Position numbers and translations under genes: made by a program | Assembly: GCA_029339195.1 (NCBI GenBank) | Contig: JAPTJF010000079.1 | Span: 62,001-126,000, forward strand | Direction of reading: 5' to 3' | DNA length: 64,000 bases | Source of the DNA: Micractinium sp. NFX-FRZ | Lineage: Eukaryota; Chlorophyta; Trebouxiophyceae; Chlorellales; Chlorellaceae | Notes under the pieces: generated by a model | The model's input: only the letters and a program-made list of their open reading frames with translations | The model's database searches: none | What the model was told of the DNA's origin: nothing | Shown here: piece by piece, positions 7,841 through 53,100 of the stretch | Numbering within the stretch: position 1 is the first letter of the stretch | Layout of the letters: each line of letters begins with the position of its first letter

Positions 7841-10800
7841 TCACCGCCGCCTGTTCTTTCCAGCCGGTGGAGGCTTCTTCACGCCGCCCGCCGGCCCGCC
7901 CTTGCCGCCCTTCTTTCCCTTGTTGCGCTTGGCAGCGGCATCCCGCCCCCGCGTGTCCTTGCGCATGCGGGCATCCAGCTTAGGCCCCTTCTTTTGTGCC
8001 TTGTACTGCGCGCTACGTGACCCCTCGCCGCCCTTCTTCTTGGCTCCCTTGCCCGATTTTGCCTGCGGGACGGGACCGGACAGGGGCGGCGGCAGGAGCG
8101 GCACCAGTGTGTGTTACTTGGAGAGAGCCCGGGAGGGGATGTTGGGAGGGGAGGCGTGGGCTGAGGCACGCACACCCCAGCGGGCCTGCCTTTACGCCCC
8201 ACCTCTCCCCGCTTGCCAGCTCACCTGCGCCACCGGGCTACTGGCAGCCCCACAGCCCCCCAAGCATGTGAGCAGGTCCACCTGTCGCCCCCTTGCGCAC
8301 AAATCTGTCCGACCGTGGATACAAAACCTCACGCCACCACGCCCCCAGGACGGATGGGGCGGGAAACAGGCCCACAGCAGGTGACAGCACGGGGGCTCAC
8401 CCGTGCATAGATCTTCTCAATCTCCCTCATCTTCTGCTTGAGGGGCACGTCCTCCTGGTTGGACACAGCCTCAGCCTTCTGCCGCGCCTGTTTGAGCAGG
8501 GGGCGAGGAGGCAGGGACGGGGGGCAAAGCGACCGAGGGTGAGGAGCTGTTTGGGCTTGGCAAGCAACGCAGTTTGGGGGGGACAGAGGGACGTCCTCCT
8601 CAACCCAAATGCTGCCTCCACCCTTCTGGGCATGGGGTTGGATTAGCGATGCCAAGGGGCCATGCAGGCGTGTGTAGCACTGCCGCTGCGCAGCTCTTGG
8701 CGTGCAGATGGAATGCACGCCCGCCCCTGGCCCCAGCCTCAAACCCCGCCCTGACTCAGCCTCTTGCCCTGCCCAGCCTCCCAGCCCGCCCCCCTCTCAC
8801 CTGCGTCAGCCGCATGCGCAGCCGGTTCTGCTTGCGCGCCTTGGCCTCCACCACCTTCTTGATGGGGCGGGCGTCGATGGAGCGCAGCTCCTCGCGCGCA
8901 GCAGCATACTCCTCAGAAGTGTACTGTTGTTCAAAAGGTGGGGTGGGGTGGGGTGGGGTGGGGAGGAAGGAGTGAGCAGTGGCAGCGGCAGCAGCAGCAA
9001 GAGGGGGGCAGGAGGAATGCAGATGCCGGCTCAGAACGTGTGCTGCAAACGGAGGGAACATGGGGAGGCATAGCGCTGTGAGGGCGGGTGGGGATGCAAG
9101 CACACACTGGGAGTGGTGGCAGCCAGGCAGGGGGGCTGCAGATGTTGGCACCACTCATGCCCAGCGGGCTGGGAAGCGCAGGGCATGGACGGTGGCTGCG
9201 CTAGGCCGCAGCGCTGGCCGGGAGTGCCCCAACACCCACGCCACCTGGCCCACCTGCTCCTGCGGCCGCATGAACCGCCTCTCATCCTCGGCAAACCACT
9301 TGGGGAGGTGTGTGTCGTGGCTGCGGGCAGCAGGAGGGGGCACGAGTGCACAAGTGAGTTAGGCAAGCGCCAGTTTCAGGTGCACAACTTCTGCATGGAA
9401 ACGGCAGCTGGGCTGCAAGGGGTGGCGGATGCGGAGGCGGGGGACAGGGGAGGGTTGCTGGATGGTCGGAGGAGCAGGGGGAGTAGGGGAGCAGGTGCAG
9501 CAGGGGCGGCGGAGGGCGGTGACGGGGTGAGAAGACAGTGCAGCAGCAGGGGTGTGGGCGCCTCAGATACCGTCCTAGTGGGTTTTCATGCCTGGCCCGT
9601 GGGCCCGGCTCAATTTCAACCATAGTTTGATGTCATCACCAGCGCAGGGACACACCCACCGATGCAGGGTGCAGGGCAACAGCGACACAAAGCAAGGGCC
9701 TGCATAGCGCAGCTCTTGAGGCCTCAGATACCGTCCTAGTGGGGTTTCATGCCTGGCCCGTGGGCCGGCTCAATTTCAACCATAGTTTGTTGTCATCACC
9801 AGCCAGAGCAGGCGCTTGCATGCAGCGGTGCAGAGTGGCAGTGGCGAGGATTGGAAGCAACGTGCAGCAGCAGAGTGTGGGGCCTCAGATACCGTCCTAA
9901 GTGGGTTTTCATGCCTGGCCCAAGGGCCGGGCTCAACCATATGCTTGTTATCTAGTCATCACCAGCCGGCCATAATGTGCAGCAGCAGCAGGCAGTGACA
10001 GGCAGCAGCAGCGGCAGCGGCAGCAGGCAGAGGGGCCAGTTGATGTGGCAAGCGGGCGCCTCAGATACCGTCCTAAGTGGATTTTCATGCCTGGCCAAGG
10101 GCCCGGCTCAACCATATGCTTGTTATCTAGTCATCACCAGCGCAGGTTCTCGTGTGCAGCACGGCAGCAGCATGCAGCACAGACAGCGCGGACGGCCAGT
10201 GGCATCAATCTCAGCTCAAAGTGCGTGCACGCAAGCAGGGCAGATTGCGAAGCACGGGCATGCCGGCATGGCGGGATGCGGGGGAGGGGGCCTCAGCTAC
10301 CTGTTCTGTTTTCAAGGCCTTGCTCAACCGGGGTGTGCTGGGAGCCAGGCGCGGGGCCTGGCTCAACCAGCGCCGGGAGCGCGGCTCAACCATATGCTTG
10401 TATGATAGACATCAGCGGCCAGCCCGGTACCCATGTGCAGGCAAAAGCAGGCATGCAGCAGGCGTGCAGCGCGAGCAGGGCAGCACGCGGGCAGTGCAAC
10501 AGCGCAGCACAGCAGGCAGTATAGTGCGCAGTGTATGCACAGAGGGGCAGCGACAAGCACACGAGCAGGCCCCTCACTGCTGTTGCTGCCAGCTCACAGT
10601 GCGCCAGTGTTTGCACGCCGCCTCCACGATGCCGGCCTGCGCACCACCCCAGGGCACAAGCAGCTGCACTCCGACCCACCGCAACTTGCAAGCACCCACT
10701 GTTGCTGCCAGCTCACAATGCGTAGCGGTTGTACGCCGCCTCGATAATGTCATCCTTGATCTTGCGCCGCAGCATCTTCCGGGCCAGCGCACGCACCTCC

Positions 10801-13800: not shown

Positions 13801-16800
13801 GATGTCCCCCATCTCCCGCAGCAGCCGCTCCTCTGGATCCTCCTCCTCCTTCTCCTCCCCGCTGCCCGCCTCCTCCTCCTCGCCCGCCTCGGCGGCTGCC
13901 GCCTTGGCCGCCGCCGCCGCCGCGCGCTGCAGGTCCTTCTTAATCTCCAGCCGCCAGCGCAGCAGGTGCTTGAACTCGCTGCGGCCCAGCACCTGAGGAG
14001 CGGGGAAGGCGGGGAGGCACACAGAGCGTTTATCCACACAAAAGTTGATGAGCAACGCTGCGTCCTGCTGCTGCTCGCCACACAGCTGCTAGCAGTGCGT
14101 CGAGTCACAGCCGCATGCAGCCTCTACATCCCCCCTGTCCAGCCTTGCTGCCAACACGTGTGCCCGGCAGCCCTCTCAGCATCACCAAACCCCAGCTCAG
14201 ACAGCGCCCCCCCCGCCTGCCCTCCCAGACTGCCAAAACATACCCCCCTCCGAGCCGCCCTCCCGGCCCTCCCGACCGCCCTCCTGGCCTCCCTCCCGGC
14301 CTTCCCGACCGCCCTCCCGGCCTCCCTCCCGGCCCTCCCGACCGCCCTCCTGGCCTCCCTCCCTCCCAAGCTCACCCCCAAGTCCTTGCAGAGCGTCTTG
14401 ACCTCGGCAGTGGTGGCCACGTGGCTGCGCACATAGGCCGCCATCTCTGCGGGGTCCTCCACCCCCTCCACCGGGCCTGCAGGAGCGGCGGTGGCAGCAG
14501 CCAGGAAGGGGCAACGTGGGTGTGGGTGGCGTGGGGGTGCAGAGAGTTTTAGCCAAGGGAGGCCAGCAGGCAGTGGGTGGCTGCCGAGGCAAGGGCACGG
14601 CAGCAGCGATGCAACAAGAGGCCCAGGGGCAGGTGAGCGTGGCTGTGCAAGTGCAGGAGTGCAGAGGCGCGAGGTGGTGGCAGTCAGGGTTGAAGAAGAA
14701 GTCTCTACATCCGCGGCGGCGCAGTGGCCGCCAGTCAAGCCTGTTGAGTTTGATTTGTTGTTGGCATCAACCTGCCAAGGCATGCACAGAGAACGCAGAA
14801 CGGCAGCAGACAGGCGGAGAGCAGTGCAGCATGCGCAGCGGCAGGGCAGGGTGCCAGGTGCAGGAGGCATGGGCGGTCAGGGTTGAAGAAGAAGTCTCTA
14901 CATCCGCGGCAGCGCAGTGGCCGCCAGTCAAGCCTGTTGAGTTTGATTTGTTGTTGGCATCGTCCCGCCAGCAGTGAGAGCAGACCAGCAGGCAGCACGC
15001 AGCAGGCACAACAGCGGCAGAGCTACGCGTGCGGAAACAAGGCAGGTGGTCTGGCGGGCAGCAGCGGCGCCGGGGCAGGCGGTCAGGGTTGAAGAAGAAG
15101 TCTCTACATCCGCGGCAGCGCAGTGGCCGCCCGTCAAGCCTGTTGAGTTTGATTTGTTGTTGGCATCCTCCCGCTGCCCTCGGCGCCGGAGCCGCTGCCT
15201 TACCACAATCACAGCAGTGCCGCGCAGGCAGCGCGCAGCAGCAACAGGCAGCAGCAGCCGGCGGAAGCAGCGCAGCAGCATAGGTGAGGCAGCCAGAGAA
15301 GCCAGCAACGCCTGGCATTGGGCAGCGTGCTGTGCCCTGCTTTGCCCCATGCACCGTCAGCCCCTACAGATGCAAGACCTGCCAGGGGTGAGGCTGGGCC
15401 TTGCCCCCAGAGCCCGACCTGACCCCCTCAACCCACACTCCCCCCCTGCCCACCCACCCACCCACCCTCAGAGTTGGGCCCCTCCAGCGCAATCGTGGTG
15501 TACTGCCCCAGCATCTCAATGGGGCTGTCCCCCGCCACAAACGCCGCCGCCGTGAGCACCTTGTGCGTCGTGGACAGGCCCTCCTCGTAGCCCTCCCTGC
15601 AGGGGCGGGCAGCAGGAGGGGCAGATGGGGGTGCAGTAGCGCGTCACGCCAGCACAGCACAGCACAGCACAGCGCAAGCGCCGTGCAGGCAAGGCACAGG
15701 GGCCGGCGCACATACATGAAGCTCTTGCACGAGGCGCAGCCCCAACTTTCTTCCGCAGCCTCACCGCCAGGAACATGCTCAGGAGCCGCCCCCCTGAAGC
15801 ACGTCTGCTTGGTCTTGTCAACAAGACACGTGTACTCAGTGCTAAACTTCCAACCTTAAAAGGTACCAACCCTAAACTTCTAAGAGGTCCCACCTGAAGC
15901 GCGTCTGCTTGATCTTCTGCTTGATGAGGGCGTCAGGCCCCGCCGGCTTGGGCACCTCCTGGACCTCCTGCAGCCATTAATGCAGCCAGACAGGGAGGGA
16001 GGGCGGGAGGGACGTTGCGGCGGGGGAGGTGAGCACAGCAAGGAAGGGGACGTGAGGGCACGGGGCCCTACCGGCTCGAAGGGAATCCAAAGCTCCCTGC
16101 AGTGCGTGAGTGGCCCGCAGGGGGAGAGGGCATGTTGGGGCGAGGCGGGGACGCAGAGAGGCGGGCACAACAGAGGCATGGGCAACCCGAGTGCCCGCAC
16201 AAAGAGCTGTCCATGCATGCGTGCAGGGGCACTAGTTGGTGCTGGCGAAGAAATGACGCAAGGTGTGTGTCTGGGGTGGATGGAAATGTGCCGACCGGGC
16301 GCACCGGACGGCGCAGCCTGGAGGGGCGCTGCGCCGCCGCGGCAAAGGGTGCCCCCAGCCGCCTGGACTCTGCTCTCTGCGCCTCCTTGCCCCGCTGAGC
16401 ACTGACGGGCAGCAGCGTGGTGGTTGGGGCGCATTGCGTGCTGCTGCTTCCATGCACGACGGGATGGTGCATGCATGGCAGTCAAATGGGTGCAGGTGCC
16501 TGAGGCCCTTTGCGATCGACTCTCAACCTCACCTGACACATGTGCTTGCGGCCAAGCAGCTCCCTTGCCTCCCAGAGTGTTTTTGTTTGCACTCTTTGCC
16601 AATCCAATCTGGCACCTCTTCACGCCATGCCTGCCACCCCGCCCCACCCCGCCGCACACCACACCACGCCACACCTGGAAGAGGTGCTTGGGGTCCAGCA
16701 GGCGGGGGTCAATCTTGGCTGGCGCCTTATACCCGGAGCACACCACAAAGATCTCGGCGGACGTGCCACGTGAGGCGGCCGGCTTGGTGGCCTCCACCTG

Positions 16801-40643: not shown

Positions 40644-43600
40644 ATGATTATCACCACCTCAGAGGAGTGGACCAACCTGTACCGGTCCATTCGGGAGGAG
40701 AGCACCCGCAGCGATGAGAAGCACGTCTTCATCTATGCCTGCGCCTCGGATGCAGACTCGGTCTGTGCGCTGCGCATCCTCGAGGTGGGTGCTGCTGGGT
40801 GGCGCTGCTTGCGCATTCACGGGTGGCACCTGCTTTACCTGCATCGTTATCTGTTGCGACCTGCTGCTCCCCAGCACATTACTGATCAGGCACGTGAACC
40901 TTGGTCGGCAGCAGCGCCGCCAGGCAGGGCTTGTCGCCGGGGGCTGCCGACCAGTGCACGCCGGGCTCTGCCAGCCTGGCGCTTTGCGCATGCTGGTGGT
41001 GGCAGGGTTCTGCTGCTCTGTGCGTGCATGCCACCGCTGACCTGTTGCTGCCTGCTGACGGCCCGTCTTATCCGGTACATGCAACCACGCTCACCTCCTG
41101 CACCACCCACCCCACCGCCTCTCCCGCCACCGCCACTGCAGCGCCTTCTCAAGAACGACCGCGTGCCGCACGGCTGGATGGCGGTCAGCCGGTACGAGGA
41201 GATTGAGCGGGACTTCAAGCAGTACTATCAGGAAGGGGAGCAGGCACTGCGTACCGCCATCCTGGTGAACTGCGGGGCGGCGGAGGATGTGCGGGAGCTG
41301 CTACACCTGGGGCAGCGCATGAACGTGCGGGTGGTCATCATCGACTCACACAGGTGGGCTGAGGGGGTGTGATGCTCTGGGTGTACTGCTCTGGTGTGGT
41401 GCCAAGGCGCAAATGGGTTGGGCTGCGTGTGGGGCAGCGCAGCGCAGCAGTGTGCGCAGCTTGGTGGGGCGGTGCGTGGGCCAGGCTGGCCTCCGCTGGC
41501 CTCATCGCGTGCAGCCAGCCGCCACTCCCTGCCTCAATCTTTGGCCCCGCACGCGCCACCTGGCACGCCCGCAGGCCCATCTGCCACCTGAACAACCTGG
41601 ACAGCGAGGAGGACAGCATCATTGTGTTCCTGGACGAGAGCGAGGGCACCCTAAAGGCGGACATCCCGTCGTGGGAAGACGTGGAGGCGGGCAGCAGCGA
41701 CGACGAGGAGGGGGAGAACAACCCGCCAGCCAAGCAGTGCGTAGGGGCTCGGATCCTAGTGGCTGTGGAGAGGGGGCGGGCTGGGGTTGCTGGGTCGATG
41801 GACAGGCACGTGGACCGGAGGCGTTCCAGTCCAGTGAGGCTGCATGGGGCGGGAGGGTGGCCGGCACCAGGGCTTGGCGACTGAACTGTGGGGCTTGCCA
41901 GCAGTTCCAGCCGTGGGCGTGCGGGAGCTCTGGCTAGGAGGGCCACTGCCCGACCTGCCACACACTAGCTCATCCGCCCGCCTGCCTGCCTGTGCAATAC
42001 TGCAGGCGGCGACTAGGCTCCCCTAGCAGCAGCGGCAGCCCGGGAGGGGGCGCCGACGGCGCGCCAGGCCCCAGCCCGCGGCAGGAGCGGCGCAAGGAGC
42101 GGGCGCAGCGGGAGGCGGATCGGGAGGCATACTATGCGCACGTGAGGCATCTGTTGGTAGTGGGAGGTGTTGGAAGCATGTGGTATGGCACCGGTGGGGT
42201 GTGTGGAGCACACGGCGAGAGTGAGGACACGACGAGGGCCCAGAATCTGCAGGGCTTGGGCTACGGCAACCCCGCCAGCCTCTGGATGTATGCATTCTTG
42301 CATCATGTACCCAGGGCAATGCCTCTTGTGCTGACCGTATATTTCAAGCCCCTTTGCAAACTGCAGGGCGTGAGCTACGGCAAGCCTGCTGCCTGCCTGA
42401 TGTACGACCTGGCGTACCATCTGGGGCAGGACAACGCCAACATGCTGTGGCTGGCGCTGGTGGGGCTCACAGACCATCTGGTGCACAACCGGATATCCAG
42501 TGAGCCGGGGGGCAGGGGGAATGGCTGTTCTTTGGCGGGACAACTGAGGGTGGGGCTGATTTCTTGTGGCGCACTCGTGGTGAGGGAGGGCCTCATGGGG
42601 GGCGTCAGTGGGGCCGAGCTTCAGGGCGGCAGGACTCCCATACAGTACCGCCCTCTTTTGGCCAAGGTCTGTACTGCCTCTTGCTCATGTTCTCTCTATC
42701 TGTTTCCTTTCTTCGTTCCTTTGCTGCAGGTGACAAGTATCTAGAGTACTACCTGCATTATGAGACGTATGTCAGCAGCGCGGGGCACCTCGACTTGCAG
42801 GTGGGTGCCTGCCCACCTCCCTGCCTGCCCGCCTGCCGCCCGTCAGCCTGGCAGTGGCGGCATGAGGCATGGCCTGCCATGCGATGCGGAGCGGAGGGGT
42901 GCAGACAGCTGAGGGGGCAACGGTAGGGGAGGCAGCAGGAGTTTGCAGGTCTCGACTGTCTGCAGGCTAGCAGTAGTACGGGGCAGCGCAAGTGCTGGCA
43001 TGACAGATGGCTCACCGCTGCTGCCACTTGCACTAATGCCTGATTGTGCTGCCTGCCCGGCTGGCTGGCCTGTGCAGGCGGAGCGGGAGGTGGTGGATGG
43101 GGATGGCGCCGTGGTGCTCAACAACCAGATCACCTGCCGCATCCTGTAAGCCTCACGCTTTTTGCCTGTGTGTGCGGGCGGAGTTTTGGATTGCATGCGG
43201 GGCTGGCAAGCGCAGAGTGCTGCGGGCTGCTGGGAAGCGCTCTGGCAGTAGGAGGCAAGATTAAGCCTGTGTTCCCATGCCCAGCTGCGGGTAGCGCTTT
43301 GGGCGGCTGTGGGATGGAACGTGTTCGAGGCGGTGGCGCGCAGGAGCCCCCTTTGCATGCGCCTGATGTTCACACACCCATGGCTGCCCCTTGCAGGCCA
43401 CAAGACGACTACCGCTTTGGGCTGCTTTGGGAGTGGAACCTGTATGAGGCCATGGTGTACAGCCCTTATGTGGCCAGCAGGCTGCAGACATACACAGGTG
43501 CGCGGCGGGGGGAGCGCCAAGGGGGGGCCGGAGGGGGGCAGGCACAGCGGGCTGGCAGCATGGCAGCAGGACTGCGTGTGCCAGACATGTCTCGCTGTGC

Positions 43601-46600
43601 GGCAGAGTGGTGCTGCGGGCTGCCCGTGGGGTTTCAGGAAGCGGGGCAAGGGGTTTGTTGCCCAGCGGGAAGGGCCAGTTGGAAGGGCAGATATTTACCT
43701 GCGTTTTCCATATGTCCAGCACGCATGCCCTCCCCATCTCTGCCTCCCTCCTTGCCGACTCTGCCTTGCCTGCCCACTCGCCTGCCTCGTCCCCCGCAGA
43801 GAAAGGGCGCAACATGCTCGAGCTGCTGCTGGCCAAGCTGGGCATACCGCTGGAGGAGGCGCAGCGCAGCTTTGCGGGAGAAGGATGTGAGCGCCCAGTG
43901 CCGCTGGTCGGGGGGTGCCGTCATCCGGCTGGCTCCCCTGCTCGTGCTGCTGCTCGCGCGGCTGCATGCAAGTTGCCCCCAGCTGCCCTGCTGCCTGGCT
44001 ACCCTCTATGCCCACGCGTTCATGACACCTGTGCCCTGGCATTGGTAATGTACTGCAGATGACATGGCGCCGCGGTACCGCCACAGCCTGGCGGAGAAGC
44101 TGGAGGTGCACGCCCCCGCCTTCCGCATGTCCGACGTCGCCTTCAAGTCCTTCCAGCTGCAGGCAAGCCTCCCCCCCAGCCGCATCTGCCACTGACGCCT
44201 GCTTATGGCAGGAACTCTTGTAGTGCACAACCAGCGCAGCGCAGCATCTGTGCTCTCGCTGCTTTGAAGCACGCACACAGGGCAGCACAGTTTGAGGAGG
44301 GCAGTGTACATGGGCGCAGGTTTTGGGGGCCGGCCTGCACCCCACAGGCCCGCCCCTCACTGTGCATTCCCTGTGCCGCCTGCCCCGCCTTACGCCCACG
44401 CCCCTGCACGCCGGCCTGAAGCGCTGCTTGAACGGTCACCCTGCACCCCCTTACAACCTCCCATCCTCCTCCGCCCCTCCTCCCTGTCGTCCATTGCCTC
44501 GTCCTCCCTGCAGGACGGCCTGAAGCGGTGTGTGAACGCCGTGGACCTGGTGCATGCGGTGACGGCACTGCTGGAGTGCGGGTCCCGCAAGGGGCCGGCC
44601 ACCAACTTTGGCGACCACGTGGACAAGTTCTGGTGAGTGTGGCAGGCCGACCGAGTGACATGAGCGAGCGTGTCTGGTTGATGGAACGAATGTCTGCGTG
44701 CGTGATGTGCGCATGATGTGAATGAGCCGGGCACACGTCTGTGTGCGTGATGCGAGCATGACGTGAACGAATTAGGGCCGCGACAGTGCGGTGGGACTAA
44801 GTGGACTGCATGAGAGGGAGGCCAGGTGGCGCAGGCGCATCCCCGCATGGTGTGCGTGCCTTTGCACCGCGTGCCCTGAGCCCACGCAAAGCTGGCACTG
44901 ATCCCAGCCATGCCCCCAGTGTCTCCACTCCACCCCCTGGTTGCAGGCGCGCCTACCATGCGCTGAGCTGGGGTGAGGACTGTGGTGAGCTGCGGCGGGG
45001 GCTTGAGCTGGCCAAGAAGGTGCAGTCAGCGCTGATCAACGGTGAGGGGCGCAGAGGGGCGACCCGGGAGAGCAGGGGGTGTGCTGCACCTGCGTGGGAT
45101 GGGTGGGGTGGCAGGCAGGCAGGCCCCCATGGGCGGGGGCTGCACCTGGCTACAAAGGTGCAATCGGCGCGGATTCAAGGAGTGGGGCCGCCATGGGTCA
45201 GTGCAGCAGTGCGTCCCCCATTGGGTTTGGGGATGGTTGCACTGGCGTCGTTGGTGAGAAGGAGGCAGCCAGGTGTGCAGTCGGCGTAGGGGGTGTGCTG
45301 CTCCAAGCCCCTGAACAGCCTGTGCCAACCGCGTTCCATGTGCAGATGGCGGGGCGGTGCTGCAGCAGCGGCACTACCACAACTTCAAGCAGTTCCGCAT
45401 TTTTGACCTGTCGGACCACAAGATGAACAGCCAGCATCTCATCGTGAGTGGAGTGGAGTGGAGGGGTTTGGGAACAGCGGGTGTGCCAGGTTGACAGCTG
45501 TTGACAGCTGTTGCAGGGGGGGTGGCAGCTGCCGTGAGAGCAGCTGCCCGGCCGAGGCAGGCGGCAGCGAATGCAGATGTTGTTACGCCGCAGGCCGGGC
45601 AGCCAGCAAGCCGATGTGGGCATGGGGGTCACTGCCAGGCGGTGCATGCCGCAGCGCTGGGGGCACCAGCGGCACCTGTGGCAGCAGCAAAGCAACCCCC
45701 CGGGCGCCCATGCCACTCCCCGAAGCTGTCTGCGTGTTTGTGCTCTCTCCACCCCCTCCTTGCCAACCTGCGTTGCCCCGCCGCACGCCGCCTCCTGCTA
45801 ATCTGCCCCGCCCACCGCCCCTTGGTCCCACCTGCAGGGCCACCCCATGGCGCTGCAGCGGCTGGCCTCCTTCTTTCAAGAGCAGCACTTCCAGGTGGGG
45901 CGGCGGGGCTGTGGGGTGACTTCCCTCTCTGGGGCAAACAAGGACTCATGGTTGTTTCATGTCAGCGTGACGAATCACCCTGCGCTCAACCCTACAGTGC
46001 TAGCACTGGTAGTAACCGGCTGAGAGCATTGCTCCTGCCCCTCAACCAACACCACACATGCAGGCGCGCGGCGCACGCAAGCCTGTGATCCTCATTGGCC
46101 CGCGCTCGGGGGACGGGCGCTGCCTGGTGATTGGGTACGAGGCGACGCAGCGAATGCGGGTGAGAGCTGGGGTGCGAGGGACCGCGAGGGGTTCCAGGGC
46201 CGGTTGGGTCCCTCCTCAGCACACTGGGTGCGGCACTCACCGAGGCCAGTCCATTCCCTGCCTACATCCCACCCTTCTGCACTCTCGCTGTGCCCACACA
46301 CCAACCCCGCGTAGCAAGACAGGGCAGCAAGCTGCGCACCTGTCCAGAACATTCCCTCTCCCCCTGCGCCTCATCCTGCTGCCTCACAACACTGCCCCCT
46401 GTCTTCCCACAGGGCAACAAGCTGGGCACGGCTTTCATTGAGGCTACAGACCGCGTGGGGGCCCAGGCCTGGCACGACCTCTTTGACACATGCATCTTTG
46501 AGATCAAGCAAGAAGGTGGGTGCCCGGTGTGCTTGCGTCGAATGAGTTAGTGCTGACTTGCTGTGGGGTGTGGGGGCCTGCAGCAGTGCTGCGGTTGGGC

Positions 46601-50109: not shown

Positions 50110-53100
50110 GCCCTTCCCGCCCCGGCCCCCGCCCTCTCCTCGCCCATCCCCGCCGCCTCCCTCGCCGCCACCGCGGCCGCCGTCCCCCTCCCCACCCCCG
50201 CCCCCCCCAAGCCTGAGCAGGCCCCCGCCGCCGCTGCCGCCCACGTGAGCTCAGTGCATTCCAGTGACAGCTTCGATTGTACGTGCTTGACTACGCAGTG
50301 GTTTGCCCTGTTGTGCACATTTGTGATGCATCCGGCCAGTGTGCTCCCACCGGTGGTAACATCGTACGCTCGGGGCCACAGGAAGATCACCACAGGGCAA
50401 GCGCCAGGCAGGCACGATGGGCCACCAATTCGTGACCAGCGCTGGTCTAAGCCCAACCTCCAACTCCTGCCTCCCTGCCCACGCTGCATGCAGGCCACGC
50501 CCACCACCGTCCCCCCGGCCCCCTCCCCCCTCGCCCTATCCTCCACCATCCCCGCTCCCGCCAAGCCCCTCCCCACCCCCACCCTCACCCTCTCCCTCGC
50601 CGCCCTCGCCGCCACCTAGCCCGGCTCCTTCCCCCCGTCCCCCGCCTCCCTCACCCTCTCCCCCGCCCCCCCGCCCCTCCCCTCCCCCACCCTCTCCCTC
50701 ACCGCCGCCACCCTCGCCGCCCCCACCCCCACCCTCCCCTCCCCCTCCCTCTCCCGCAAGCCCCCCACCTCCGCGTGCCACTCAGGCGTAAGTGGGGCCT
50801 GCTGGGCCTGCTGGGTTGAGCTGTTGATTGCCAGCAGTGCATGCATGTGGTGCCCCTCGCATCAATGGTCCAACCCCATCTCCCCGTGCACCAACTTGGC
50901 CATGCGGGCACATCAGGAAGCCAGCCAACAAGGCATGCCGTGCTCAGAGATTGACCCATAAACCCAGTGTTGCCGCCGGCTTGCAGGCTGCGCCCCCCCC
51001 CCTCGCCCCAGCCATCCCCGCCTGGGCCCAGACCCCCTCGCCCGCCCCCTCCCCCCAGCCCCTCGCCGCCACCTCCCCCCAGCCCCCGTCCACCCCCGCC
51101 CAACCCCTCGCCCACGCCCCCTCCTAGCCCCAGCCCCTCCCCTCCCCCTCCTAGCCCCTCCCCGCCCGGCCCCTCTCCCCCGCCCCCACCAAAACCGTCG
51201 CCCCCGCCCCCACCCAACCCCTCTCCCCCACCCCCGCCCAGCCCATCGCCCCCACCCCCGCCCAACCCCTCCCCTCCACCTCCGCCCAGCCCCTCCCCAC
51301 CACCCCCGCCAAGCCCCTCCCCACCACCCCCGCCAAGCCCATCGCCCCCGCCCCCACCCAGCCCCCCGCCCCCGTCCCCGCCCAACCCGTCCCCGCCACC
51401 GCCCCCGTGAGTGTGCCGCACCTGCAGCCGCAGCCAGAACTCTGGTTTTGTGCCAAGCAGAAAAGAGGCAGCCCTTCGCCCCCTGCATGCCCCCTGCTTT
51501 ACACAGTGCCGTCCCTCCTGTTCCACACGGTGTGCCCCCCTCCTTGCCCCCACCTCCCATGCAGGCCCCCACCCAGCCCTCCCAATCCGCCTTCTCCGCC
51601 ACTGCAATGCGCTGCCACCGACTCCCTCACTGGCCTCGAGGCTTTCACGGTCAGCCCGCTGGCATGCATGCGTGTATGCACCCTCCGGCAGGAGCGGGGG
51701 CATCTCCCCATTCCCGACAGCGCCTGGAATATCCTGCACTCGTTGCACTCTTGCTAGCGCATGCAACCCTCACAGCGTGCTTTCTCCCAACCCCACCACC
51801 ACCCGCCCGCTCATTTGCCGCACCCCCCACCCAACCCCACCCCACACCCCTCCCATGCTCAGGTCACTGACAACCAGGCGCCTGGCGGCGGGAGCTGCAC
51901 AGGCGGCATTGCCTCCACGACCGCCAACTGCTGGGTGCCCACCTGCCCCGGGGGTGTGTGTGCCAACCTGCCCAAAACCAGCGTCGGCACCGCCACCTTC
52001 AACTGGCAAGCGGTTGGCAAGGATTTCGATGTTGAGGTGGGAGCGGTGCACACGCATACAGAGCGCTATGCGGCAAAGCGCTGCGCCCAGCCGCCAATCT
52101 GCACCACGTCCCAGTGCAGCGCTGCACCCACCCCCCTCTCAGCCCCCCCACCTGCCCCCCTCTGCTGGCCGCGCCTCTCCTCCGACCCACCGCAACATGT
52201 GCCTGCTAATCATCACAGCACTGCCCGTGGCTTGCCTTGCCTTGCTTATTTGGATCCTCCGTGTGCACTGCCTGGCATGATCCCAGGGGGGCCTGTTGCC
52301 GCCTGGCTCGAGCTGCTGGTGCTCACAGGATGACTGCTGCCCACCCGCTTGCTGCCCGCTGCCTGCGTGCACATGCTCACCAGCCCAGCATGGCCAGTAG
52401 CTCCCCGGATGGACTGGCCCTGGCCTGAAGTGCACTCCTGACATCACCTGCCCCACTTCTCCTCAATGCAGCGCAGTGGGCCCTGCCATGTGATGCATCA
52501 CACTCTGCCACTGACGCGCAAACAACCTCCTCCCCCTCACACCCGTCACGGTCTCCGCCCTCTCACAAACATCTTACGATCCGCCTGCCCCGCCGCCGAG
52601 CTGCAGGTGGACTGGGTCGACCTGTGGGATCAGCCCGCCATCCAGGAGCACCCCCTGGGGACGAGGGCAAAGGTGGCCCAGGTGAGGCGGGCGCAGGGGG
52701 CATGGGACGCGCGCAGACAGCAAGGAAACGGGGTGGGTTTTGTGCAGCAAGGAGCGGCAGCAGTGCTGCACTGGGGCATCAGCTGCTCAGTGGGCGCCTG
52801 GGGAGGCTGGCCACGAGGGGTGCAGCGAGCAGGCAGGCCTGGGTGTAAGACAGGAAGCAGCCAGCGCGCGTGGCAGTGTGTGGCGCCCCAGCCACGGCGT
52901 GCACAGCATGCATGTGAGCGGCAGCGCAGCGCCCAACGCTGCGGCACGCATGCAAGCGACTGGTGGCACTGCAGCCACAGCACAAGGGTGCGTGTGGTGC
53001 CCCTGCCACTTCTGCAGATCGGCTTTTACTCGGATGCGGGAACCGCCAACTTTGTCACTGCCCACGCCACTGACGGCACCACCGTTGGCTCAGGCACTGC

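Follow-up and report, generated by a model that had tools for sequence, protein, structure and literature searches.

Intronic snoRNA clusters are already known in green algae: for Chlamydomonas reinhardtii, such clusters and multigene families were reported by Chen et al. (2008, Genetics), as cited in the O. tauri paper. Two 18S rRNA methylation sites are relevant here. In yeast, Am28 is guided by snR74 and Cm1007 by snR79, according to the entries for these sites in PMC5199042, which agrees with the first-pass annotation of this DNA in placing the two guides on separate snoRNAs. The comparison in PMC2780460 gives Cm1007-type guides for S. pombe, S. cerevisiae and Neurospora (CD18), the entries of Arabidopsis and human being dashes. 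Besides yeast, Am28 is methylated in Arabidopsis (A28 in Table 1 of PMC8053127), in Dictyostelium and, as Am27, in human (table of the Dictyostelium paper); therefore, some Am28 guide was expected in the alga as well.

In the present study, we analysed five tandem box C/D elements (1a to 1e) in an intron of the SPB1 gene, within a stretch of 64,000 nt of algal DNA (the window). Like the Chlamydomonas clusters, as these are summarised in the citing paper, the locus appears to hold several snoRNA genes in an intron of a protein gene; it is ordinary in kind and, as far as sequence tells, genuine. The D guide of the alga would put at D+5 what we take to be the same 18S cytosine as yeast snR79 (Cm1007) and Neurospora CD18 (Cm1004). 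Whereas yeast (snR74) and Neurospora (CD21) have the Am28 guide in a separate RNA, 1c and 1d have both guides in one RNA. As in SNORD27, snR74, Arabidopsis U27 and CD21, an Am28 guide of the form ACAAGCAUAUG abuts box D', and SNORD27 was also the top Rfam score of 1c. The alga differs from Rfam SNORD27 in that its D' box reads UUGA after a G instead of uCUGA, in the presence of a second guide, and in a score far below gathering. No report of Cm1007 and Am28 guides in one RNA was found in the portions of the snoRNA and rRNA-modification literature that were compared, the Chlamydomonas survey lying outside this comparison. The less usual features of the locus are the combination of targets, the apparent specialisation of the copies with graded guide loss, and a host gene for an rRNA methyltransferase.

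Host intron and anatomy of the elements

The minus strand of the window was found to carry SPB1. Its translated exons matched FtsJ (173.8 bits), and the two exons flanking the cluster, joined with the next exons, matched Spb1_C (128.8 bits). The joined SPB1 exons also matched solved SPB1/FTSJ3 chains (five distinct sequences, best E 8.7e-19). It was observed that the exons on either side of the cluster join in frame at the donor and acceptor given in Table 1. These results bore out the earlier placement of the cluster inside an SPB1 intron, and the putative snoRNA genes lie on the SPB1 sense strand of what is predicted to be a spliceosomal intron. Elsewhere in the window, an ORF on the plus strand (43044-44045) matched a CDC45 domain (39.8 bits versus a cut-off of 34), and an array of repeats with 12- and 24-nt periods, perhaps coding low complexity, was seen at 50511-51430.

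Table 1. Positions in the window of the host intron, the C/D elements, their proposed extra-pairing arms and the second family.
Feature	Position	Strand	Details
SPB1 intron, cluster host	9321..10716	minus	1396 nt, GT-AG; donor ATT^GTGAGC, acceptor CCCGCAG^CC
C/D element 1a	9555..9645	minus	box C 9633-9639; D guide 9567-9579 (13 bp); box D 9563-9566
1a arm UAUGGUUGA	9616..9624	minus	antisense to 18S beside D target; proposed extra pairing
C/D element 1b	9716..9805	minus	D guide 9728-9740 (13 bp); box D 9724-9727
1b arm UAUGGUUGA	9776..9784	minus	proposed extra pairing
C/D element 1c	9877..9968	minus	D guide 9889-9900; Am28 D' guide 9937-9948; D' box TTGA 9933-9936
1c arm UAUGGUUGAG	9932..9941	minus	proposed extra pairing; overlaps Am28 guide and D' box
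C/D element 1d	10053..10143	minus	D guide 10065-10076; Am28 D' guide 10112-10123
1d arm UAUGGUUGAG	10107..10116	minus	proposed extra pairing
Degenerate copy 1e	10285..10421	minus	box C CTGATGT; Am28 D' guide 10390-10401; box D 10293-10296; D guide lost
1e arm UAUGGUUGAG	10385..10394	minus	same complementarity, yet no matching D guide in 1e
Second C/D-like family, three copies	15078-15172, 14867-14966, 14679-14768	minus	98% identical (genome search)

All five spaced copies described by the first-pass annotation on the SPB1 sense strand were located, and re-reading of the sequence confirmed both the perfect box C (GTGATGA) in four of them and the box D (CTGA) in all five. Their equal status did not stand, since 1e is degenerate, with an altered box C, and 1a and 1b are without the Am28 guide. 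The span from box C to box D was 76-78 nt in 1a-1d versus 123 nt in 1e, and units 1a-1d measured 90-92 nt including flanks. Terminal stems of 4-5 bp were present in all four units scanned (1a-1d) and were re-paired between copies as had been described, with GCGCU/GGCGC in 1a and 1d and GGCU/GGCC in 1b and 1c; a GGCC/GGCC stem was read by eye in 1e. A D' box UUGA was seen in every copy. In 1a-1d, an invariant 7-bp hairpin lay between D' and C', and C' was, reading by eye, a degenerate GGCAUGA at most. Degenerate C' and D' boxes are described as usual in C/D snoRNAs in the pertinent text of PMC2780460.

The covariation of the terminal stems consisted of one pair (C-G versus G-C) and was not significant, with four sequences and a value as high in 87 of 500 shuffles. 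The bodies of the units grouped as 1a with 1b and 1c with 1d (91% each), and the stems grouped as 1a with 1d and 1b with 1c. This crossed grouping indicated either that the stem had been re-paired more than once or that copies had recombined.

A generic C/D scan was run on both strands, asking for a box C with at most one mismatch, CTGA 50-130 nt away and a stem of at least 4 bp. It returned 13 candidates, among which a perfect box C and an 18S guide of at least 10 nt were found only in 1a-1d; such a scan misses 1e and the second family. A covariance model built only from 1a-1d scored its own four units at 107-114 bits, as expected for a training set, and detected 1e at 34.3 bits (E 2.5e-07), the next match in the window having an E of 0.1. 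An Rfam search of the window gave no match at gathering score. The covariance-model search of the intron, which had been proposed as a check, lent no support when it was run permissively with Rfam: nine weak matches were obtained, none above its own cut-off, the best snoRNA score being that of SNORD27 on 1c (18.7 bits versus a cut-off of 52, E = 6). By the gathering cut-off, 1c falls outside the SNORD27 family, and the likeness that we claim is one of predicted target only.

Predicted targets and the 18S reference

The guides were paired with what we infer to be a Chlorella-type 18S, printed in Appendix A of PMC7699214. The pairing rests on another alga's 18S because searches of the 66-Mb assembly (838 contigs) for the nuclear 18S of the alga itself were empty, the queries being the first 980 nt of an algal 18S of 1777 nt and a shorter piece of 226 nt. 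A 22-nt 18S pattern (one mismatch) and a 31-nt LSU pattern (two mismatches) also had no match in the assembly, an empty answer that shows little.

It was observed that the D guides of 1a and 1b form 13 bp with the Chlorella-type 18S and those of 1c and 1d form 11 Watson-Crick pairs and one GU pair, in each case directly beside box D. All four pair with AUACCGUCCUA(GU), over 11-13 bp. The first-pass annotation had assigned this guide to 1c and 1d; it does fit 18S beside box D there, but it is not confined to those copies and is longer in 1a and 1b. For the D guide of 1e, no match of at least 9 bp was found in the Chlorella-type 18S. The D+5 rule applied to the D guide leads to the second C of AUACC, which we take, by yeast numbering, to be the Cm1007 equivalent. 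The D' guides of 1c, 1d and 1e form 11 Watson-Crick pairs and one GU pair with 18S directly beside UUGA, and the same rule leads to the second A of UCAUA, presumably yeast Am28, again by yeast numbering. The Am28 D' guide that had been noted in 1c and 1d was thus borne out, but not in those two alone, as 1e carries one too. The nucleotides indicated by the two guides matched the earlier prediction of Cm1007 and Am28, with the equivalence to these yeast positions taken by numbering.

The intron contained four exact 18S duplexes of 11 bp or longer that abut CTGA or TTGA; over 1000 dinucleotide shuffles the mean was 0.005, and none reached four. Over the whole window, Watson-Crick matches of at least 11 nt to the Chlorella-type 18S numbered 41 on the minus strand and 18 on the plus strand. 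Among the minus-strand matches listed (40 of 41), those of 1a and 1b were the longest, at 15 nt each, and extended into box D. Two 13-nt matches on the plus strand had no box after them. Measured against the Chlorella-type 18S, the elements appear to have the pairing of methylation guides, that is, at least about 9 bp abutting box D or D' with the target at position 5.

The D target had been called universally conserved, and this description proved wrong, as several eukaryotic 18S have GUCGUAGU (the GUCG form) instead of AUACCGUCCUA. The GUCGUAGU/GUCGUA reading was found in the Rfam eukaryotic consensus and in the rDNA contig JAFDZJ010000109.1. Land-plant 18S generally reads GUCCUAGU. Among the algal sequences printed in the cited papers, the Chlorella-type 18S of PMC7699214 also reads GUCCUAGU, and GUCGUA stands at the D target in the Chlamydomonas 18S (PMC6245355) and in the third, Dunaliella-type 18S of PMC7699214. 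With the Chlamydomonas-type GUCG, the D guide would form 8 bp, one mismatch and a few more pairs, and the D-guide energies were -16.8 and -13.5 kcal/mol versus -20.8 and -17.5 kcal/mol with the Chlorella type.

A 74-kb mitochondrial contig of the assembly (C837, 40 kb read) showed an SSU rRNA that matched along the full length of the bacterial model, together with an open cox1 and an ORF read as rpl16. We take the features of this contig to fit Trebouxiophyceae and not Chlamydomonadales or Sphaeropleales. Because the contig reads trebouxiophyte-like, the alga's 18S is likely of the GUCC type. A group I intron was also seen inside the LSU rRNA match of this contig. JAFDZJ010000109.1, a contig of a Bacteroidetes MAG, carries eukaryotic rDNA with 18S, 5.8S and LSU and was the sole such contig found in prokaryote genomes; because this is eukaryotic rDNA within a bacterial MAG, it is probably contamination. 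In viral contigs, 91 stretches with a 15-mer 18S word were found, none of them with any of six further words, and two longer 18S words had no match.

In 1a and 1b, the D' region forms 13 bp including three GU pairs with 18S 89-101 (TCAGTTATAGTTT) if the second TTGA is taken as D' with an offset of 2, and a 9-bp duplex including two GU pairs if the first TTGA is taken with an offset of 0. The former pairing (window 9605-9624 and 9765-9784, minus strand) is a possible third target, but a weak one, at -8.7 kcal/mol. The score of 11.5 of this D' duplex was reached at 9 of the 20 CTGA/TTGA boxes in the intron, and in 60 mononucleotide shuffles it was reached at a mean of 0.017 boxes and at most one. 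In the Arabidopsis table of PMC8053127, no methyl site was found at what we take to be the equivalent of 18S 89-101.

Proposed extra pairing and a second C/D-like family

Extra pairing of C/D snoRNAs has been described for 45 of 104 Arabidopsis sites, with 7-15 bp (Wu et al. 2021, PMC8053127). As reported there, more than half of the extra pairs are immediately adjacent to the primary pair on the rRNA, and the median distance between the two in the snoRNA is 30 nt. PMC8522698 further cites van Nues and Watkins 2017 on extra pairing. In the alga, UAUGGUUGA is kept in every copy, within the longer UAUGGUUGAG in 1c, 1d and 1e. This arm is complementary to 18S 999/1000-1008, beside the D target at 986-998 (partial Chlorella-type numbering). 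The proposed pairing of 9-10 bp at 1-2 nt from the primary pair fits the published cases; the arm of 1c and 1d differs from them in overlapping the Am28 guide and the D' box. In 3000 mononucleotide shuffles of each of 1a-1d, a 9-nt match near the D target, as reached by 1a and 1b, arose in 0.2-0.4% and a 10-nt match, as reached by 1c and 1d, in 0.03-0.2%, frequencies that overstate the case because the flank was chosen post hoc and the D' box is constrained anyway.

Relative to box C, the arm of 1a and 1b is shifted by 6 nt (element positions 22-30 versus 28-37). Because the arm is kept in these two copies at a shifted position, though the surrounding Am28 guide is absent, the comparison favours a clamp rather than a D' guide there. 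A point against the clamp is that 1e has the arm although the D guide to be aided by it is lost. In 1c and 1d, the arm overlaps the Am28 guide and the D' box, and the two uses would therefore be mutually exclusive. Two features, the G at position 1 of the guide and UUGA in place of CUGA, make it less than an ideal Am28 guide, and it is exactly these that complete the clamp. We tentatively consider, at somewhat less than even odds, a two-way switch in which UAUGGUUGAG would be either part of the Am28 D' guide or a clamp beside the Cm1007 target, the copies having specialised after tandem duplication. With the arm in double use, one RNA would act on a single site at a time. Under such a switch, 1a and 1b, being without the Am28 guide, would keep the clamp, and the 6-nt shift would be tolerable for a clamp and not for a D' guide.

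A second C/D-like family sits in the SPB1 gene, between SPB1-matched exons at about 16.7 kb and 10.8 kb. Its members have a CTGA box D, a degenerate box C and an invariant hairpin, and a fourth copy (94%) was found on contig C524 near an exon read as adenylosuccinate lyase. The terminal stems were GGCGG/CCGCC in 2b, GGCAG/CTGCC in 2c and four of these five pairs in 2a, and their covariation, equalled or exceeded in 165 of 500 shuffles, was not significant. A peptide joined from two presumed flanking exons, chosen by eye, found no PDB chain at E 0.001, so the reading of these exons is unconfirmed. The D' guide UCAAACUCAACAGG pairs with 28S CCUGUUGAGUUUGA over 14 bp, one base from D', if an ambiguous primer base is U, and over 9 bp if it is C. 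The target as read is 28S CCUGUUGAG(Y)UUGA, its sequence being that of a metazoan primer with this ambiguous base printed in PMC3458000. A 7-bp stretch of the family matched the adjacent 28S AAGAAGA, and no target was found for the box D guide. Since the D' guide matches 28S, SPB1 may host guides for both ribosomal subunits.

Copy conservation, competing explanations and significance

Units 1a-1d were 73-91% identical in pairs, all far above 200 shuffles. The four internal spacers (six pairs, 200 shuffles each) scored like shuffled sequence or nearly so, with fractions of 0.165 (twice), 0.095, 0.01 and 0.005 (twice) of the shuffles doing as well. The spacers may retain a little relatedness, and because three of the six pairs are slightly more alike than shuffles (at most 1% as good), the duplication may be young enough that part of the conservation is age. 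In the 66-Mb assembly, the exact guide-plus-box TASGACGGTATCTGA occurred four times and ACAAGCATATGNYTGA three times, all in the SPB1 intron; an exact-pattern search of this kind would miss divergent or shorter guides at other loci. The 91-nt unit 1a had at least four matches in the genome, all in the SPB1 intron among the best candidates scored. An origin from a transposon or minisatellite was rejected because the spacers have decayed and the units occur at a single locus among the candidates scored. Since the exact guides occur nowhere else in the assembly and Am28 is widely methylated, the alga probably draws its Am28 guide from this intron.

The D-guide pattern had one match in public viral contigs (IMGVR_UViG_3300037166_000180, near 2342-2358), where 21 nt are shared with 1a across its D guide, box D and stem. 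It was rejected as a snoRNA copy, as no RTGATGA occurs up to 1.9 kb away and the match falls within an ORF of 84 aa, and because of this position without a nearby box C the likeness was taken as chance.

We consider that the locus is, with a probability of about 0.88, a tandem array of box C/D snoRNA genes in the SPB1 intron, whose copies would guide methylation at the Cm1007 site with or without Am28. This reading is carried by the anatomy, the complementarity to another alga's 18S, the conservation of the copies, the host intron and the uniqueness of the two exact guides. The original proposal of an expressed snoRNA cluster guiding 18S held in part: it is well supported for the tandem C/D genes with their predicted guides, on anatomy, the fit of the guides to another alga's 18S, spacer decay and uniqueness, and gave way on the "universal" target. 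From the sequence, we infer the following course of expression, processing and methylation. The SPB1 pre-mRNA would be transcribed and the intron excised, exonucleases would trim it up to the terminal stems held by C/D proteins, and each trimmed RNA would enter a snoRNP. The D guide would then pair with 18S AUACCGUCC..., and fibrillarin would methylate the second C of AUACC (Cm1007 equivalent). The D' guide of 1c, 1d and possibly 1e would pair with UCAUAUGCUUGU, leading to Am28, and UAUGGUUGA(G) of all copies could pair with 18S just 3' of the D target, which may make the D guide bind more strongly. The copies look partially specialised, 1a and 1b for Cm1007, 1c and 1d for both sites, and 1e decaying or for Am28 only.

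The five tandem copies, with 1e plainly degenerate and the Am28 guide missing from 1a and 1b, could also suggest snoRNA pseudogenes or a snoRNA-derived repeat that was formerly functional and is now untranscribed or unprocessed. We regard this as unlikely, as the guides, boxes and stems of 1a-1d are intact while the spacers have decayed, no dispersed copies were seen with the 91-nt query among the best candidates scored, and neither exact guide occurs at another locus of the assembly. With no other such locus, no evident guide for Am28 would be left if every copy were silent.

Slightly less likely still is that these are real C/D snoRNAs whose D guide is an antisense chaperone of 18S folding and not a guide for methylation of C1007. 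The D guide adjoins a perfect box D and gives the snR79 position (equivalence by numbering), which argues against a chaperone; the D guide and the UAUGGUUGA(G) arm nevertheless span 18S 986-1008 nearly gap-free, as a chaperone might. By its numbering, we take Arabidopsis U1013 to lie two bases from the Cm1007-equivalent C. Methylation of U1013 is assigned to SnoR20.1 in PMC8053127, and the RiboMeth-seq table of that paper lists no methyl at the equivalent C itself, a point in favour of the chaperone. Extra pairing is, on the other hand, common in ordinary methylation guides, as in the 45 of 104 Arabidopsis sites of the same paper. An unrelated intronic minisatellite with a chance likeness to 18S would account for tandem copies in a GC-rich window with other tandem repeats, but it is extremely improbable, as units of about 90 nt repeat at 73-91% identity while the spacers hardly repeat, and the box-side guide matches exceed all 1000 shuffles.

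If the tandem snoRNA array is true as read, Cm1007-type methylation, which is listed for two yeasts and Neurospora and is unmapped in Arabidopsis, would extend to a green alga. A single guide RNA would serve both this mark and Am28, which is widely conserved, and the guides would be hosted by SPB1, which encodes a protein-only methyltransferase of rRNA. With their graded guide loss, the four copies would make it easy to read how guide RNAs divide labour after duplication.
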